A DNA stretch of 64,000 bases from Thalassospiraceae bacterium LMO-JJ14 (lineage in GTDB: Bacteria; Pseudomonadota; Alphaproteobacteria; Rhodospirillales; Casp-alpha2), in assembly GCA_021555105.2 (NCBI GenBank), contig CP134604.1:2170001-2234000 (forward strand). The letters are read 5' to 3'. The notes beneath the pieces were generated by a model. The model had not been told where the DNA came from and ran no database searches. It was given only the letters and a program-made list of their open reading frames with translations. This document shows positions 7,370 through 35,002 of the stretch, in pieces. Every line of letters begins with the position of its first letter. The stretch's first letter is position 1. The translations under genes and the position numbers were made by a program.

Positions 7370-8224
7370 CTAGTCGAGCTTTTTGCCGAGCCGCCCGGCC
7401 AGATCTTGAATGTATTGCCACGCCACACGGCCCGAGCGCGCACCGCGCGTCACCGACCATTCGTTGGCTTCGGCCTTCAGGTCGATCGACGGATCGTCGA
7501 GTCCGTAGTGTTTGGCATAGCCTTCGATAATCTCGTAATAGGTTTTCTGATCGACGTTGTGGAAACCGAGCCACAGGCCGAAGCGGTCCGACAGCGAGAC
7601 TTTTTCCTCGGTCGCTTCCGACGGGCTGATGGCGCTGGAGCGTTCATTTTCGATCATGTCGCGCGGCATCAGGTGGCGGCGGTTCGATGTCGCATAGAAC
7701 AGGACATTGTCGGGCCGGCCCTCGACGCCGCCGTCGAGCACGGCTTTCAGGGACTTGTAGGCTTCATCCTGGCCGTCGAACGACAGGTCGTCGCAGAAAA
7801 TCAGGCAGCGGCGTTCCGTATTGCGGAGCTGGCCGAGCAGCGTCGGCAGCGACGGGATATCCTCGCGGTGGATTTCGATCAGCGCCAGCGCGCCCGGCGT
7901 TTCCTGGTTGATCTTGGCATGCACGGCCTTGACCAGCGACGACTTGCCGGTGCCGCGCGCGCCCCACAGCAGGGCATTGTTGGCGGGGAATCCGTTGGTG
8001 AAACGCTTGGTGTTGTCGATCAGTTGATCCTGCTGGCGGCTAATGCCCTGCAATAGGCCGATATCGACGCGGTTGACCTTGGCAACGGATTCCAGACCGC
8101 CGCTTGCATGCCAGACGAAGGCATCGGCATCGTCGATGCTGCATTCCGGCGTCGGCTCGGGGGCCAGACGCTCAAGCGCACCGGCAATCCGGCCCAGTAG
8201 GTCCTTGGTTTCCTGATCGGTCAT
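7370..8224 (-). CDS. DUF815-family AAA ATPase
   Basis: 284-residue P-loop ATPase of the DUF815 group, found in many alpha- and betaproteobacteria with no firmly established role. Walker A is GARGTGKSS (residues 88-96) and Walker B is CLIFCDDLSF. The motif SDRFGLWLGF near residue 230 and a C-terminal helical bundle (ARSGRVAWQYIQDL) are typical. It is transcribed divergently from yajC across a 234-base gap that must hold both promoters; I see no unambiguous sites there. Confidence 0.87.
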   Translation of the reverse strand: MTDQETKDLLGRIAGALERLAPEPTPECSIDDADAFVWHASGGLESVAKVNRVDIGLLQGISRQQDQLIDNTKRFTNGFPANNALLWGARGTGKSSLVKAVHAKINQETPGALALIEIHREDIPSLPTLLGQLRNTERRCLIFCDDLSFDGQDEAYKSLKAVLDGGVEGRPDNVLFYATSNRRHLMPRDMIENERSSAISPSEATEEKVSLSDRFGLWLGFHNVDQKTYYEIIEGYAKHYGLDDPSIDLKAEANEWSVTRGARSGRVAWQYIQDLAGRLGKKLD

Positions 8225-8458
8225 CTTCGTTTCACATTCCGCTCATGTCATTCGGTTCAGGGCGCGGAAGGTATACGCGCGCCTTTTGAGCGTCAATAAA
8301 GGTTTGCCCGCGTGCGCCGAAGATTACGATACGTTAATGCGCGATCCCCCGGATTTCGGTCGGAATCGGTTGCAACTCCGGGTCTGGGCGGTATAGTCCC
8401 GCGACTTTTATAAATGGGCGCATTCGCCCCGGCTGAGGCGTCTCGAGGAGTTGATACA

Positions 8459-8950
8459 ATGTTTATTTCCGAAGCTTACGCACAAGCGGCAGGTGGTGCT
8501 GGCGGCGGCAATGCTTTCCAGGCGTTCCTGCCCCTGATCCTGATCTTTGTGGTGTTCTATTTCCTGCTGATTCGTCCACAGCAAAAGAAGATCAAACAGC
8601 ACCGTGAACTGCTCGACGGCCTGCGTCGTGGCGACAAGGTGATTACCGGCGGCGGCATCATCGGCACCGTCACCAAGGTCGACAACGACAATGAAGTGAC
8701 CGTCGAAATCGCCAAGGACATCAAGGTCAAGGTACAGCGCGCCACGATCTCCGGCATTGTCAATCGCACCGATCCGGTCGGCGGTACGCCGGCCAACGAT
8801 TCCGGCAAGAAATCGGGCGGTCTGCTGGCCGGTCTGTTCGGTGGCGGCGCCAAGCCTGCGGCCCCTGCGGCACCCGAAGCACCTGCTGAAACCGAATCCG
8901 GCGACAGCGGTGACGGCGACGACAAGGGCAAGGACGCTCCCAAGAGCTGA
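8459..8950 (+). CDS. yajC: Preprotein translocase accessory subunit YajC
   Basis: 163 residues from the ATG at 8459, chosen because a GAGGAG ribosome-binding site lies 8 bases upstream; the frame is open back to 8414 but without such a site. The single transmembrane helix (PLILIFVVFYFLLI) is followed by the conserved RPQQKKIKQH motif and the GDKVITGGGIIGTV beta domain. YajC joins SecDF in the holotranslocon. The Ala/Pro/Asp-rich tail of about 50 residues is longer than in E. coli YajC. The secD and secF genes follow directly. Confidence 0.95.
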   Translation: MFISEAYAQAAGGAGGGNAFQAFLPLILIFVVFYFLLIRPQQKKIKQHRELLDGLRRGDKVITGGGIIGTVTKVDNDNEVTVEIAKDIKVKVQRATISGIVNRTDPVGGTPANDSGKKSGGLLAGLFGGGAKPAAPAAPEAPAETESGDSGDGDDKGKDAPKS

Positions 8951-27843: not shown

Positions 27844-28272
27844 CTATCTAAGGATCATTTGCGTGCAGCGGAAGAGGGCGATGGTTTTTCCCGTTTCCTC
27901 GTGCGTCACCTCGGCGTCCCAGACGTGCGTCCGGCCACCCAGATGGCGTGCCGTCGCGGTGGCGATGATGGCGCCGTCGCGGGCCGTGCTCAGGTGGTTG
28001 GATTTCAATTCGATGGTGGTGAAGTTCGTGCCGCCTTCGGGCATGTGCGCATAGGTCGCATACCCGCACGTGGTGTCGGCCAGCGAAATGATTGTCGCCG
28101 CATGCAGATAGCCGTTCGGCGCCGTATGATGCGGCTTGATATCCAGCCGCGACACCAGCTTGCCTTCGCTGATTTCGACGGGAACGACGCCCATGTATTC
28201 CGGCAGGTAGCCTTTCGCCCGCTCGATCATGTGTTCAATGGTGACGTGGGGCAGGGGGTAGGTCGTGGACAT
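27844..28272 (-). CDS. PaaI-family hotdog thioesterase
   Basis: 142-residue single-hotdog enzyme hydrolysing acyl- or aryl-CoA thioesters. HHTAPNGYLHAATIISLADT is the family signature; the Asn and Gly-Tyr-Leu-His region form the active site. GRTHVWDAEVTHEETGKTIA forms the late strands. Its start overlaps the stop of the upstream gene by one base (TAATG). It probably serves the acyl-CoA metabolism suggested by the nearby CoA-transferase genes. Confidence 0.9.
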   Translation of the reverse strand: MSTTYPLPHVTIEHMIERAKGYLPEYMGVVPVEISEGKLVSRLDIKPHHTAPNGYLHAATIISLADTTCGYATYAHMPEGGTNFTTIELKSNHLSTARDGAIIATATARHLGGRTHVWDAEVTHEETGKTIALFRCTQMILR

Positions 28273-28808
28273 TAACCGAAAACTCCATTGGCGCGGATCA
28301 TTTGTGACAGGAACAGGATGCAGAAAGAGCCGGCGGCCCAGAAAAGTGCACGCAGGAAACGCGTGCGTTTCTGGTCGCGGATCAACGAGACTTTGGTGAT
28401 TTCATAGAGAATTTCCATTGCCCAGTCGGATTTTCGCGCGGCATCGCTGAAGCTCTTCACATCGGGAAAACTTTTGGGATCGAAGTACATCACCCCCTGA
28501 ACGTTAGCGGGGCGGTTCTGGCGGTCGATCTTGTCGACCCGCGACGGATAAAGCACCAGCGCGAACATGATGATCGGAATGACGATGATCAGCCAGCCGG
28601 CAAGAACATAGAACGAGGCGTATTCGATCGGTACCGGAATGCTGTCGCCGGCCTGCTTGACGATGCCGAGTGCGAGAATGAAGCCGACGCCGCATATTTC
28701 CGCCTTGGTGTCGTAATTGCGGATGGTGTCCTGTGCTTCGGCAAGGATCGCCAATAGCGCATCGGCGTCTAGTTTTTCGTGAAAATCGTCTGAGTATTCT
28801 TTATTCAC
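28272..28808 (-). CDS. Hypothetical membrane protein
   Basis: 178 residues. Two adjoining transmembrane helices lie near residues 40-85 (EICGVGFILALGIVKQAG and a LAGWLIIVIPIIMFALVLYP segment) and one near the C-terminus (ALFWAAGSFCILFLSQMI). An acidic helical N-terminus precedes them. The layout recalls membrane effector or pore-forming accessory proteins (for example Pycsar or CBASS-type), but no partner cyclase or sensor is adjacent, so I do not name it. Confidence 0.7.
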   Translation of the reverse strand: MNKEYSDDFHEKLDADALLAILAEAQDTIRNYDTKAEICGVGFILALGIVKQAGDSIPVPIEYASFYVLAGWLIIVIPIIMFALVLYPSRVDKIDRQNRPANVQGVMYFDPKSFPDVKSFSDAARKSDWAMEILYEITKVSLIRDQKRTRFLRALFWAAGSFCILFLSQMIRANGVFG

Positions 28809-28879: not shown

Positions 28880-29068
28880 TTATTTTAAATTGGCCTCGAT
28901 GTCGGCGATCTCGGCCTCGATATCGTCGACATTCCGTCTGATCCGCTTTACGTCCGCTTCCGACGCGCCGAGCACGCCGCCGTTGCGTTCGGCGGTGTCA
29001 GAATATCTGCGTAGTTGATGTTCGAACTCGGCCTTGGCGGCACGCAGCTCGCGAAGGTGCGCTTCCAT
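28880..29068 (-). CDS. Small coiled-coil protein
   Basis: 62 residues from ATG 29068; the frame runs 30 codons further upstream into AT-rich, probably non-coding sequence, so I prefer the shorter form. It is entirely helical with heptad-like spacing (MEAHLRELRAAKAEFEHQLR and IRRNVDDIEAEIADIEANLK). No ribosome-binding site is strong. Function is unknown. It is divergent from the lipoprotein gene at 29202. Confidence 0.5.
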   Translation of the reverse strand: MEAHLRELRAAKAEFEHQLRRYSDTAERNGGVLGASEADVKRIRRNVDDIEAEIADIEANLK

Positions 29069-29201
29069 GTTATTCAAGTGCGGCAATTCCAAATACCAAT
29101 ACCTGTATAATACCAAGAAATATTTGTAATAGTTGTAAAAGCGAATTTGTGGTAACATTCCAACTATAAGTCATCAAATTAAAATGACAGGGGGTGTTCT
29201 C

Positions 29202-30908
29202 ATGCGGAAAGTATTTGTACCGGTACTGGTCAGCATTTTAAGCGGGTGCGCCAGCGGCAGTGTTTTTCATGAATTCCAACTCGATCCGAATGGTGGCAAC
29301 TCGTACACCACCAGCGCCGATCAGCGCCTGATCTCAAGCATGTCTTACGGGGTCGCTACGGCGCCCGGCCGGGTTCATCCGCAACGGATCGTATGTGTGG
29401 AACCCAGCCCTGACGTCGCCATGACCGTTGCCAACCAGATCGGCGCCGGAGTCAGCGCATTCGGGTACGGGAGCGGATCTCTGAGTGCATCCACGGCGCA
29501 GGGGATCGCGCAACTGGCGGAGCGGACGACAGCCATTCAGGCGCTTTTGAAACAAGGCTACCAGGCCTGTCTGGACTACGCGAACGGTGCGATTACCGGC
29601 ACCAGCTACAGCCAGCGCACCAGCCGTTTGGATGATCTGATGGTCACGCTGATCCTGTCCGAAAATGCAAGCGGCGCATTCGGCAGGAGCGGCGCCGCAC
29701 TGGCCGGCAAGGCATCCGGTTCCGCGCAGGCATCCCTGTCGCAATTGGACAAGGATGCTTCGGACGTCCAGAAGCTTCAGGAAAAACTGGCAACAGCCGA
29801 GAAGAGCGTGACCGACAAGGAAGCCGAGGTCGAAACGGCCGAGCAGGCGGCGGCTTCGGCACCCGAGGCGGAAAAAGAGGCCAAGAATGCGATTGTTAGC
29901 GCAAAGCAGGCCGAACTCGGCAAGGCCAAGGCCGAGCGCTGGGCGATCCTTGCGCAACTGAAGCAGAGTGCGGACTCGCTGGTCACGTCATCTGCGGAAA
30001 TCACGACCGCGACGGGGATCGGCGGCATCACCGCAAACCCGAATGCGGAAATCGCCAAGGTATTGGGCGAGATGCAGGCGCGCTTTCTCGACAAGGATAT
30101 CGATCAGTCCTATATCGCCACGTGTCTGACGGAATTGGGGCATCGCAAGCTGGCGACGGCGGAAGACAATGAATACAGGAAACTGGCGCTGGCCGAATTG
30201 ACGAAAATCCACGACAAGGCAGCAAATGGGCTGACGTTCGGCGACGGCGGCTTCCCCGGAACTGATTACGGTCTGCATCTCGAAAGTTTCTTCCTGTCCA
30301 CCCAGCTGACCGGTGAAAACCAACTGACACAGCATTGCCGGCAGAATTTGAGCGGCTTCGTCGAAACCTCCATCCGTAACCGCCAGGAACTCAAGCTCAA
30401 ACGTCTCGAAATAGAGCAGGCGAAGCTCACCTTGCTGGCGAAGCAGGCGGAGCAGGCAACGCCCAAGGCATTCCATCCAAAACTGGTCATGGCCCGCCTG
30501 CAGGCGGACAAGGCGGCGTATGACAAGGTCAAGAACGCATACGACACGATGATCGTGAAGGTGCCGAAAGAACCGAAGCCGGATCCGAACAAGGTGCTCC
30601 GCGATGAATTCAAGGCGTTCGTCAAGGGACTGCCCGCGTTCGAAAAAGAAATGAATGCGGCCGTCGCGGCGGGACCGGTTGGCGAGGTTGCGAAACTGGA
30701 GGCTGCATACCTGACGCTCGTCGCCGACATCCGCCAGGAGGGGACAACCCTGCAACGTAAAGCCTGGAAGGCGGACTACGATAAACAACAAGCAGAAGCC
30801 GAAAGCCGGACTGTTGGGCTGACAAAGGTTTCAAAGAAAGTGCGGGGCATGACCGCCGCGTTGAAGGATCTGCACGACCGCATCGTCAAAACGTTCGATA
30901 TCAAGTGA
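29202..30908 (+). CDS. Large coiled-coil lipoprotein of unknown function
   Basis: 568 residues from the ATG at 29202, chosen for AGGGGG 8 bases upstream and because it gives a clean lipoprotein signal (MRKVFVPVLVSILSGC, Cys16). The first 170 mature residues hold VCVEPSPDVAMTVANQIG and a helical region with LLKQGYQACLDYANGAITG, a layout seen in uncharacterised bacterial lipoproteins. Residues about 185-255 form a long Ala/Lys/Glu coiled coil. The C-terminal half is helical and charged. The next gene is a papain-like peptidase only 41 bases away, so they probably work together. The upstream 130 bases are strongly AT-rich. Confidence 0.82.
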   Translation: MRKVFVPVLVSILSGCASGSVFHEFQLDPNGGNSYTTSADQRLISSMSYGVATAPGRVHPQRIVCVEPSPDVAMTVANQIGAGVSAFGYGSGSLSASTAQGIAQLAERTTAIQALLKQGYQACLDYANGAITGTSYSQRTSRLDDLMVTLILSENASGAFGRSGAALAGKASGSAQASLSQLDKDASDVQKLQEKLATAEKSVTDKEAEVETAEQAAASAPEAEKEAKNAIVSAKQAELGKAKAERWAILAQLKQSADSLVTSSAEITTATGIGGITANPNAEIAKVLGEMQARFLDKDIDQSYIATCLTELGHRKLATAEDNEYRKLALAELTKIHDKAANGLTFGDGGFPGTDYGLHLESFFLSTQLTGENQLTQHCRQNLSGFVETSIRNRQELKLKRLEIEQAKLTLLAKQAEQATPKAFHPKLVMARLQADKAAYDKVKNAYDTMIVKVPKEPKPDPNKVLRDEFKAFVKGLPAFEKEMNAAVAAGPVGEVAKLEAAYLTLVADIRQEGTTLQRKAWKADYDKQQAEAESRTVGLTKVSKKVRGMTAALKDLHDRIVKTFDIK

Positions 30909-30949
30909 TCGGAGCGGGCTGAGCAGACATAACCTGATGGAGGAATCCT

Positions 30950-32065
30950 ATGGCAGATAAAAAGAAAGGATCGCGTTCCAAGACCCCCAAGAATGAAGCG
31001 CCGGACGTACCGGACGCGCCGGACGAATTGGCCATGCGTTCAAGGGGCGGCGGTGGGCACGGCGGCGGCGGACATGGTGGCGGCGGACATGGCGGCGGAA
31101 ATAGCGGCGGCGGAAACTGGGGCGGCGGTAACTGGGGCGGCGGTCTGCGGCTGGTCGCCATGCGTTCGGGCCTTGATGCGCCGGTTGTGCGGCCCGGTCG
31201 ACATCTCGTTAGCATGGGCTGGCATCCCGATGTGCCGGATTTCCGCGATCTGAACCCGCGAAGCGACAAGATCGCCAATATCTTGAAGAAATCGAAGTCC
31301 GGCATTCTCGGCAATACACGCGTCCCGGCAAAAGTCGATAATCGGCGCAAATGTTCTCCGATAGAAGACCAAGGACGACTGGGATCCTGTACCGCACAGG
31401 CGGTCGTTGGTCTGATGGAATATATGATGCGCGCGAGCGGCACGGATCATATCGACGGTTCCAGACTGTTTGTCTACAAGGTGTCGCGCAAACTGCTTGG
31501 CTGGCAGGGCGATACGGGCGCCTATTTGCGCACGTCCATGCAAACGGTGGCGGCCTTCGGTGTGCCGCCGGAACAGCATTGTCCGTATGACATCGACCGC
31601 TTTGACGAGGAGCCTTCGTCGTTCCTGTATTCCTATGCGGATCGTTTCAAGGCCTTGAATTACACGCGGCTCGATCCGGCAGGGGCTTCGCCCGACGAAG
31701 TTCTTGGCATGGTCAAACGCGTACTTGCGGCAAATTTTTGTGTCGTCTTCGGTTTCACCGTCTACAACTCCATATCGCATCTGCCCGATATTCCGTTTCC
31801 GGACGATGACGATAGTCAATCCGGCGGGCACGCCGTGATGGCGGTCGGATTTGACGACAATCATATGGCCGAATATGTCGATGCCGAGACGGGTAATGTC
31901 AAAAAAGTCAGGGTGCCGTCCCTGATAATCCGGAATTCGTGGGGTACGTCGTGGGGCGAAGACGGTTACGGCTACCTGCCGTATGAATATGTCCTTGCCG
32001 GGCTGGCCCGCGATTTCTGGACGTCATTCAAGTGGGAATGGCTGGAAACCGCGCAGTTCGGCTAG
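30950..32065 (+). CDS. Papain-like (C1 family) cysteine peptidase with Gly/His-rich head
   Basis: 371 residues. No signal peptide: the N-terminus is Lys-rich, then residues about 33-65 repeat GGGGH three times followed by GGGN/W units. The peptidase core follows: DQGRLGSCTAQA holds the oxyanion Gln141 and catalytic Cys147, GGHAVMAVGFDD the catalytic His294, and NSWGTSWGEDGYGYL the Asn329. All four catalytic positions are intact. There is no long propeptide with an ERFNIN motif. With the lipoprotein upstream it may form a two-gene envelope or export system, but how it would leave the cell is not evident. Confidence 0.9.
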   Translation: MADKKKGSRSKTPKNEAPDVPDAPDELAMRSRGGGGHGGGGHGGGGHGGGNSGGGNWGGGNWGGGLRLVAMRSGLDAPVVRPGRHLVSMGWHPDVPDFRDLNPRSDKIANILKKSKSGILGNTRVPAKVDNRRKCSPIEDQGRLGSCTAQAVVGLMEYMMRASGTDHIDGSRLFVYKVSRKLLGWQGDTGAYLRTSMQTVAAFGVPPEQHCPYDIDRFDEEPSSFLYSYADRFKALNYTRLDPAGASPDEVLGMVKRVLAANFCVVFGFTVYNSISHLPDIPFPDDDDSQSGGHAVMAVGFDDNHMAEYVDAETGNVKKVRVPSLIIRNSWGTSWGEDGYGYLPYEYVLAGLARDFWTSFKWEWLETAQFG

Positions 32066-32074
32066 GAACGGCCC

Positions 32075-35002
32075 TCACGACGCCTTTTTTTTGGCGCCCT
32101 TGGCGGCGAGGTAAGGGGCGAGGTATTGGCCGGTATAGCTGGCCTTTACCTTGGCGACGTCTTCGGGCGTGCCCTGGGCGACGATGTGGCCGCCCTTGAT
32201 GCCGCCTTCGGGGCCGAGGTCGACGATATAGTCGGCTGTCTTGATGACCTCCAGATTGTGTTCGATGACGATTACGGTGTTGCCCTGTTCGACCAGCGCG
32301 TCGAGGACTTCGAGCAGTTTCCGCACGTCGTCGAAGTGCAGCCCCGTCGTCGGCTCGTCCAAGATATAGACCGTCTTGCCGGTGGCGCGCCGTGACAGTT
32401 CCTTGGCCAGCTTGACGCGCTGCGCCTCGCCGCCCGACAGCGTCGTCGCCTGTTGGCCGAGATGGATATAACCCAGGCCGACGCGCTGCAACGTCACCAT
32501 CTTGTCGCGGATCGCGGGCACCGCCTTGAAGAAGTCGGCGGCCTCGTCGACGGTCAGGTCCAGCACCTCGGCGATGGACTTGCCACGGAATTTGATTTCC
32601 AGGGTTTCGCGGTTATAGCGCGCGCCCTTGCAGACATCGCATTCGACATAGACGTCGGGCAGGAAGTGCATTTCGATCTTGATGACGCCGTCGCCCTGAC
32701 AGGCCTCGCAGCGCCCGCCCTTGACGTTAAACGAGAACCGGCCCGGCTTGTAGCCGCGCGTCTTGGCTTCGGGCAGGTTGGCGAACCAGTCGCGAATCGG
32801 CGTGAAGGCGCCGGTGTACGTCGCCGGGTTGGAACGCGGCGTGCGGCCGATCGGGCTCTGGTCGATGTCGACCACCTTGTCGACGAATTCGAGGCCCTTG
32901 AGGTCGTCGTGGTGCCCCGGGATTTCCCGCGCGTTCATTAACCGGCGGGCCAGTGCCTTGTACAGCGTCTCGATGATCAGCGACGACTTGCCGCCACCCG
33001 AGACGCCGGTGACGCAGACCATGGTGCCGAGCGGCAGGCTGACGCCGACGTTCTGCAGGTTGTTCGACGTGGCGCCTGTCAGTTTGAGCTTCTGGCCCTT
33101 CTTGCCGGGACGGCGCTTGGCGGGAATCGGTATCGCTTCCTTACCCGACAGATAGCGCCCGGTGAGGCTGTCCTCGCACGCCAGAATGTCCTTCGGCTGC
33201 CCGGCACAGACGACATGACCGCCGTGCACGCCGGCGCGCGGCCCCATGTCGACGACGTAGTCGGCGGCGCGGATCGCGTCCTCGTCGTGTTCGACGACGA
33301 TCACCGTGTTGCCGATATCACGGAGCCGTTCCAGCGTCTTCAGCAATCGTTCGTTGTCGCGCTGATGCAGTCCGATGGACGGCTCATCCAGCACATACAG
33401 CACCCCGGTCAGGCCGGAACCGATCTGCGACGCCAGGCGGATACGCTGGCTTTCGCCGCCGGAAAGCGTGCCGGATGCCCTGGACAGGGTCAGGTATTCC
33501 AGCCCGACATTGCGCAGAAAGTGCAGGCGTTCGTTGATTTCACGCAGGATACGCCGGGCGATTTCGTTCTGTTTCTTGCTGAGAGTTTTCTCAAGGCCCT
33601 CGAACCAGTCCGCCGCTTCTTCAATCGACAGGTCGCTGACGTCGGAAATGTCGCGCATGTCGATTTTGACGGCCAGCGCTTCCGGGCGCAGACGCTTGCC
33701 CTTGCAGGTATCGCACGGGGCAACGGTCTGGTAGCGCTGCAACTCGTCGCGGACCCAGTTGCTGTCGGTTTCACGCCAGCGCCGTTCCATGTTCGGCACC
33801 ACGCCCTCGAACGGCTTCTTGATTTCGTAGCTTTTCGAGCCGTCCTTGTACTTCATCGTCACGGTTTCGCTGCCGGACCCGAAAAGCAGAATTTCGCGGT
33901 GTTTTTTCGACAGTTTCTCCCACGCCTGATCGAGCTTGAAACCGAAGTGTTTGGCGAGGCTTTCCAGCGTCTGTGCGTAGTATTTCGACGAAGACCCGGC
34001 CCACGGCGCAATCGCGCCCTGGGCCAGCGATTTTGTCTCGTCGGGGACCACCAACTCGGCGTCGAAAAACATTTCTGTCCCCAGCCCGTCGCATGACGGA
34101 CAGGCACCGAACGGGTTGTTGAAAGAAAACAGCCGGGGTTCGATCTCGTCAATGGTGAAGCCGGAAATCGGGCAGGCGAATTTGGCGGAAAATACCGTGC
34201 GGCCTTCGGGGACGTGATCCTTGATGCCGCCTTTCTTGCCTTTTTGCGGCTTGGTCGTTTCGGCATTTGCGTCGTCCGTACCGGGCGCGGAAGCTAAGTC
34301 GACGTAGGCTATGCCGTCGGCGAGACCCAGCGCGGTCTCCAGACTGTCGGCGAGGCGCTGTTCCATGCCTGTCTTGACGACCAACCGGTCGACGACGATT
34401 TCGATGTCGTGCTTGTATTTCTTGTCGAGATCGGGGGCGTCTTCGAGGTCGAACATCTCGCCGTCGATGCGGACGCGCTGAAAACCGCGCCGTGCCAGAT
34501 CCTGCAATTCCTTTTTGTATTCGCCCTTGCGGCCGCGGACGATGGGGGCCAGCAGGTACAGCCGAGTGCCTTCGGGCATGTCCATGACCCGGTCGACCAT
34601 CTGGCTGACGGTCTGCGCCTCGATCGGCAGGCCGGTTGCGGGCGAGTAGGGGATGCCGACTCGGGCGAACAAAAGCCGCATGTAGTCATAGATTTCCGTC
34701 ACCGTGCCGACCGTCGAACGCGGATTGCGCGACGTTGTCTTCTGTTCGATGGAAATCGCCGGGCTGAGGCCTTCGATGGTATCGACGTCGGGCTTTTGCA
34801 TCAATTCCAGGAACTGCCTGGCATAGGCCGACAGGCTCTCGACATAGCGGCGCTGGCCTTCCGCGTAAATTGTATCGAAGGCGAGCGACGACTTGCCGGA
34901 ACCGGACAGACCGGTAATAACCGTCAGGCTATGGCGCGGAATATCCACGTTGACGTTCTGCAGATTGTGTTCGCGTGCGCCTTTTACGCTGATGGTGTCC
35001 AT
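32075..35002 (-). CDS. uvrA: Excinuclease ABC subunit UvrA
   Basis: 975-residue DNA-damage sensor of nucleotide excision repair. Two ABC modules are complete: Walker [15 protein letters not shown] near the N-terminus and [10 protein letters not shown] near residue 670, with signatures [15 protein letters not shown] and [15 protein letters not shown]. Two zinc-finger regions ([17 protein letters not shown] and CDVCKGARY) are present. A basic Lys-rich tail ends the protein. No convincing alphaproteobacterial LexA box (GTTC-N7-GTTC) was found in the 264 bases upstream. Confidence 0.98.

Follow-up and report, generated by a model that had tools for sequence, protein, structure and literature searches.

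A papain-like peptidase gene paired with a CxEPSPD lipoprotein gene beside uvrA: a candidate mobile accessory cassette

Introduction

Short C1A peptidases without signal peptides are a known and widespread kind of papain-like enzyme; they are often intracellular, signal peptides being absent from the intracellular members, and they are moved horizontally, phages included (PMC10380794). Proteases coupled to other genes are known from the NucA-trypsin conflict systems (system 3, Kaur et al. 2020), which occur mostly in alphaproteobacteria, and CxEPSPD-type lipoproteins are not described among these systems (PMC7159879). A further likeness is offered by the T6SS pair Tse1/Tsi1, where a signal-less papain-fold enzyme also adjoins an exported protein.

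The locus described here lies in a window of 64,000 nucleotides (the whole stretch of DNA that was analysed) from Thalassospiraceae bacterium LMO-JJ14, and joins a peptidase gene to the gene of a large lipoprotein. The initial annotation knew of no described system with this pairing, and none was found in the literature searched. Judged from the sequences, a peptidase of a known kind is here combined with a lipoprotein from an uncharacterised family, and this pairing is real, rare and, in the literature searched, undescribed.

Layout of the Locus and Insertion beside uvrA

As shown in Table 1, the two genes are co-directional; by their ORF coordinates they are separated by 41 bases, and a GGAGG ribosome-binding sequence precedes the peptidase ORF. 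The AT-rich upstream stretch between divergent genes that had been described is confirmed as a 137-bp spacer with a GC content of 33.6%, compared with 61% in the window. It arrived with the insert and presumably contains the promoter, and the apparent "divergent promoter" is thus a result of the insertion of pair and spacer.

Table 1. Features of the two-gene locus and its flanks (positions in the window).
Feature	Position	Strand	Basis
Small coiled-coil gene beside the insertion site	28880..29068	-	Synteny
Inserted cassette: AT-rich spacer, lipoprotein gene and peptidase gene	29065..32073	.	Limits good to ~10 bp
AT-rich spacer between divergent small gene and lipoprotein gene	29065..29201	.	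Composition, absence in congeners
Lipoprotein gene, CxEPSPD family, 568 aa	29202..30908	+	ORF, translation, homologues
Lipobox L-S-G-C, residues 13-16	29238..29249	+	Translation; Cys16 invariant
CVEPSPD motif, residues 65-71, family signature	29394..29414	+	Invariant columns
Peptidase gene, predicted xylellain-type short C1A, papain-like, 371 aa, without signal peptide	30950..32065	+	PF00112, 3OIS match
15-bp imperfect tandem repeat encoding the GGGGH/GGGNW tract	31046..31143	+	TRF
GWHPDVPDFRD segment, about residues 88-100	31211..31249	+	>=90% conserved positions in 40 relatives
Oxyanion-hole Gln141 and nucleophile Cys147 (DQGRLGSC)	31370..31390	+	Invariant in alignment
Catalytic His294	31829..31831	+	Invariant in alignment
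Catalytic Asn329	31934..31936	+	Invariant in alignment
uvrA, right flank of the insertion site	32075..35002	-	87-93% identical in congeners

Four congeners are without the pair. In congeners the small coiled-coil gene lies directly behind uvrA, and in two of them (L193 and L194) blastn, tblastn and reading of the junctions place these genes about 17 bp apart; therefore, the window carries a 3.0-kb insert made up of exactly the pair and the 137-bp spacer. The pair in the window is a recent, clean insertion between uvrA and the small gene. At the same spot beside uvrA, the congener L192 (G005) holds an unrelated 1.2-kb insert of 45% GC, in which positions 7778-8848 encode a membrane and pentapeptide-repeat protein of 356 aa, and the site is an insertion hotspot of the genus. 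A gene on the other side of the insertion site, 28272-28808 (-), encodes a 178-aa membrane protein with a PADLOC match to PycTM (8.6e-12) and was considered as a third member; it was rejected because it is conserved, at 55-62% identity, in the four congeners without the pair, and it is best read as a conserved genus gene that is not part of the insert.

Identity of the Peptidase

Pfam returned a match to PF00112 (Peptidase_C1) at residues 125-343 of the peptidase (E 1.4e-14) and nothing else notable; no match to the I29 propeptide was found, and the enzyme has a single catalytic domain. Its closest PDB match is 3OIS, xylellain (sequence E 3.8e-27), which is also its best fold match. The four catalytic residues had been numbered correctly in the initial annotation and are invariant in an alignment of 40 sequences; the absence of a signal peptide likewise holds, since the N-terminus is not hydrophobic (best 15-residue hydropathy -0.58, compared with 2.11 for the lipoprotein). 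The missing inhibitory propeptide, which had been presented as an oddity, is ordinary for short C1A enzymes, and the N-terminal GWxPDxxDxRD segment proper to this subfamily is present. In this segment G90, W91, D97, R99 and D100 are at least 90% conserved among 40 relatives, and the predicted structure models it confidently. In xylellain this segment reportedly covers the active site (Leite et al. 2013, whose title speaks of "an intriguing activation mechanism"), so that "no propeptide" is a description half true at best. Taken together, the peptidase appears to be a xylellain-type short C1A enzyme and is a predicted thiol protease. PADLOC gave no defence-family match for it, its close relatives include stand-alone genes in phages and plasmids, and clustering of the neighbouring genes at about 80 peptidase loci on viral contigs yielded no recurrent partner.

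In front of the GW segment, residues 5-82 are predicted to be disordered (pLDDT <50), and within them residues 33-65 form the Gly/His tract, in which three GGGGH-type units are followed by GGGNW units. The tract had been taken as a head that could bind metal, and its three regularly spaced His would fit a protease gated by Ni or Zn; such a reading is hardly credible, as the tract derives from expansion of a 15-bp DNA repeat, is predicted to be disordered and does not occur in the peptidases of the other two pairs. Their heads are longer, contain many Arg, Lys, Asp and Trp residues and have a total of 0 and 2 His, and no conserved His tract was found when these orthologues were compared. The added disordered head spans about 87-136 residues across the three paired enzymes; unpaired relatives mostly begin at the GW segment and are without such a head. 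A head of some kind thus accompanies the pairing, and the histidines do not.

Short C1 peptidases were also seen in other surroundings. On symbiotic plasmids of Sinorhizobium and Rhizobium (L016 and L017) they are divergent from the gene of the lanthipeptide synthetase LanM, and they are possibly leader peptidases. That the peptidase of the pair would process a modified peptide, as may hold beside LanM in rhizobia, is very improbable: these homologues provide a model for it, but there is no LanM in the pair loci, and the rhizobial proteins are distant (31-32%) and sit on a long separate branch.

The Lipoprotein and Its Family

The lipoprotein of 568 aa (MRKVFVPVLVSILSGC) has the traits of the CxEPSPD family, namely the lipobox, the C-x-E-P-S-P-D motif and a second invariant Cys about 58 residues further on; in the homologue alignment the Cys of CVEPSPD and Cys123 are the two invariant extracytoplasmic Cys. 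Family members have an N-terminal part of roughly 180 residues, with Cys16, C-x-E-P-S-P-D and Cys123, and continue in a variable, mostly helical remainder; the shortest have about 190 residues. The "CVEPSPDV start" of the initial annotation stands as a conserved motif, but its placement does not, as it occupies residues 65-72 and not the start of the mature lipoprotein; nor does CVEPSPD mark the pair, since it is the signature of a lipoprotein family whose members are mostly solitary. The proposal of long helices agrees with the low-confidence model, which is predicted all-helical with a long-helical C-terminal part; the AlphaFold model is poor (mean pLDDT 48.5, pTM 0.26), too poor for a fold search. 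No family was found for the lipoprotein in Pfam, NCBIfam, PHROGs or PADLOC, the last giving coiled-coil noise only (E 0.014). It is, by homology, evidently a member of an uncharacterised, widespread Pseudomonadota family without a name. A search of 50,697 phage records gave no match to the lipoprotein, and four family members lie on IMG/VR viral contigs. On these contigs (L064, L065, L066 and L067), the lipoprotein genes stand alone next to phage genes for a terminase, portal or tail protein, and L067 also has a gene for a KAP-like NTPase, all of these neighbours being named by eye.

Among 39 distinct CxEPSPD lipoprotein loci examined, a C1 peptidase lies downstream in 3, a small membrane protein and a trypsin-like protease in 1 (Nitrosospira multiformis plasmid 3) and a NucA-like nuclease in one or two. 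The nearest relative of the window lipoprotein, G471, is 47% identical over nearly the full length, and no such C1 peptidase was found when its genome was searched; therefore, the lipoprotein would be able to work without the peptidase.

Recurrence of the Pair

The recurrence of the adjacency in other genomes had been set as the test that could refute the unit, and the pair was found in two other alphaproteobacterial genomes. A scan of a genome collection gave five loci with close relatives of the peptidase, and in two of the five a homologous lipoprotein gene lies directly upstream: 38 bp away in an uncultured alphaproteobacterium (L005) and 71 bp away in a Marinicaulis MAG (L006). Gene order and strand are identical in the three pair genomes, with gaps of 41, 38 and 71 bp, and the two-gene unit is real in that its adjacency recurs in unrelated genomes. 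In a class sample of 385 genomes (thresholds E to 1e-20 for the peptidase and to 1e-6 for the lipoprotein), such a peptidase occurs in 9 and such a lipoprotein in 15; both occur in 2, the window's own genome and G150, which is either identical with the L005 genome or a twin of it, and they are adjacent in both (41 and 38 bp). The adjacency exceeds chance. The orders around the two other pair genomes were searched, and no further pair was found.

In the peptidase tree the three paired copies cluster (SH-aLRT 86) within a set of four supported at 99, and in the lipoprotein tree they fall inside a supported set of five (96/86) together with two unpaired copies; the two gene trees thus concur in grouping the paired copies, with unpaired relatives nearby. 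L005 and L006 are 81-82% identical over the compared columns, and because they are this close, the pairs represent two lineages rather than three.

These data also bear on the strongest rival explanation, according to which two accessory genes with separate jobs were joined once by chance and have since travelled together. It is somewhat unlikely. The families are mostly solitary, with 36 of the 39 lipoprotein loci lacking a C1 partner and peptidase relatives standing alone in phages and plasmids, and L005 and L006 form one recent lineage; on the other hand, order and short spacing persisted despite protein divergence to about 45-60% identity, and a second protease type lies behind a related lipoprotein in Nitrosospira. 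Ordinary housekeeping of the envelope, with the protease trimming the lipoprotein or other proteins of the envelope or turning them over, would suit co-directional genes and a helical lipoprotein that could serve as a scaffold, but presence is patchy (the pair occurs in 1 of the 37 genomes of the family sample), the setting is mobile and the protease carries no export signal, which makes this explanation improbable.

Settings in Other Genomes

The Marinicaulis pair is carried on a tRNA-Leu island of 17.8 kb, where it follows the tRNA-Leu gene and a gene for a tyrosine integrase; the final 21 bases at the tRNA end are found again 17.8 kb away as an att repeat, and a type I methylase gene lies between the repeats. 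In L005, a protein of the metallo-beta-lactamase fold (MBL) encoded next to the pair matches LmuA (3.5e-18) and Avs1a (2e-13), and a neighbouring 2TM protein has an SLATT_2-like match at 3.6e-4, under the Pfam cut-off. On Nitrosospira multiformis plasmid 3 (L019, 2011-6043), an IS3 element interrupts a CxEPSPD lipoprotein gene, which is followed by the gene of a 97-aa membrane protein and then by that of a signal-less trypsin-like protease.

Some neighbours of related peptidases recur elsewhere. An unnamed protein family adjoins C1 peptidases in Marinicaulis (L006, 7273-8322) and Sporomusa (L015, 7047-8213), and a relative of it is found in a MoxR/SAV_2336 locus of Pseudanabaena (L201, 4887-5975), where it adjoins a caspase-family gene; as a component of the pair it was set aside, being absent from the window and L005. 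In a Bacteroidetes MAG (L008, 3819-4511), a DUF2589 protein (4.6e-34) is encoded two ORFs upstream of a C1 peptidase.

The layout of the pair also recalls toxin and immunity genes, in which a signal-less protease would be delivered into rivals and the lipoprotein would shield the periplasm of the producer, as papain-fold amidase effectors are paired with immunity proteins in the periplasm. The adjacency of a signal-less papain-fold enzyme and an exported lipoprotein, and their horizontal spread, are consistent with this; however, the T6SS sheath protein VipB (PF05943) was searched for and is absent from all three pair genomes, the pair loci contain no delivery genes, the lipoprotein family is mostly without an effector, and the nearest relatives of the enzyme are proteases and not NlpC/P60 amidases. 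Its probability is accordingly low.

Proposed Function

Both proteins, their co-inheritance, their mobility and their island setting are established. The pair is most readily read as two co-transcribed genes that form a mobile accessory cassette and most likely work as a defence or conflict module, a reading to which we give a probability of about 0.4. Both genes would be transcribed together, and the pair would be swapped in and out of genomes through the spot beside uvrA and through tRNA-linked islands. The lipoprotein would be anchored by its N-terminal Cys either to the outer face of the cytoplasmic membrane or in the outer membrane, its long helices would carry it away from the membrane, and it may watch or alter the envelope. 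The peptidase, joined to its disordered head, would remain in the cytoplasm and be held inactive until an assault, whereupon it would cut a cellular or invader protein; contact between the partners, proteolytic activity and a role in defence belong to this proposal.

The defence or conflict reading is favoured by the conserved order in three genomes, the concurring trees, the clean insertion and the Marinicaulis island, as well as by the defence-effector matches in L005, the trypsin-like protease locus of Nitrosospira and the lipoproteins on viral contigs. Against a joint module stand the small number of C1 pairs (only three, two being close kin) and, as the main weakness, the apparent position of the partners on opposite sides of the membrane, the lipoprotein being exported and the peptidase having no export signal; against defence stands the absence of any known defence gene within the window's insert. 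A broader proposal, in which the CxEPSPD lipoproteins would be the fixed component of a new envelope-linked module for defence or conflict and the cytoplasmic effector could be exchanged (papain-like, trypsin-like or perhaps a NucA-type nuclease), is unlikely. Joint action of a lipoprotein outside the membrane and a protease inside it would, if true, define an accessory module of a new kind, and further cargo of this sort could then be sought at the uvrA site. It would also provide an initial clue to what a widespread unnamed Pseudomonadota lipoprotein family does, and a clue to signal-less bacterial papain-like enzymes, very few of which have a known function.

Comparison with Known Systems

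The cassette differs from each of the closest described systems. The NucA-trypsin systems resemble it in that trypsin-like or NucA-like genes lie near a few CxEPSPD lipoproteins (L019, L181 and L184); unlike them, the window cassette is without trypsin, NucA and EAD1, and its insert holds two ORFs only. Unlike Tse1/Tsi1, the window enzyme belongs to a protease family and is not an amidase, no T6SS sheath gene occurs in the pair genomes, and the CxEPSPD lipoprotein is far larger and mostly without a partner. The xylellain-type short C1A enzymes (MEROPS C1A; xylellain, 3OIS; Lpg2622, PDB 6A0N) have the same catalytic Q, C, H and N, are likewise without an I29 propeptide and share the N-terminal GWxPDxxDxRD segment with the window peptidase; unlike them, the paired peptidases add a disordered head and an upstream lipoprotein gene.
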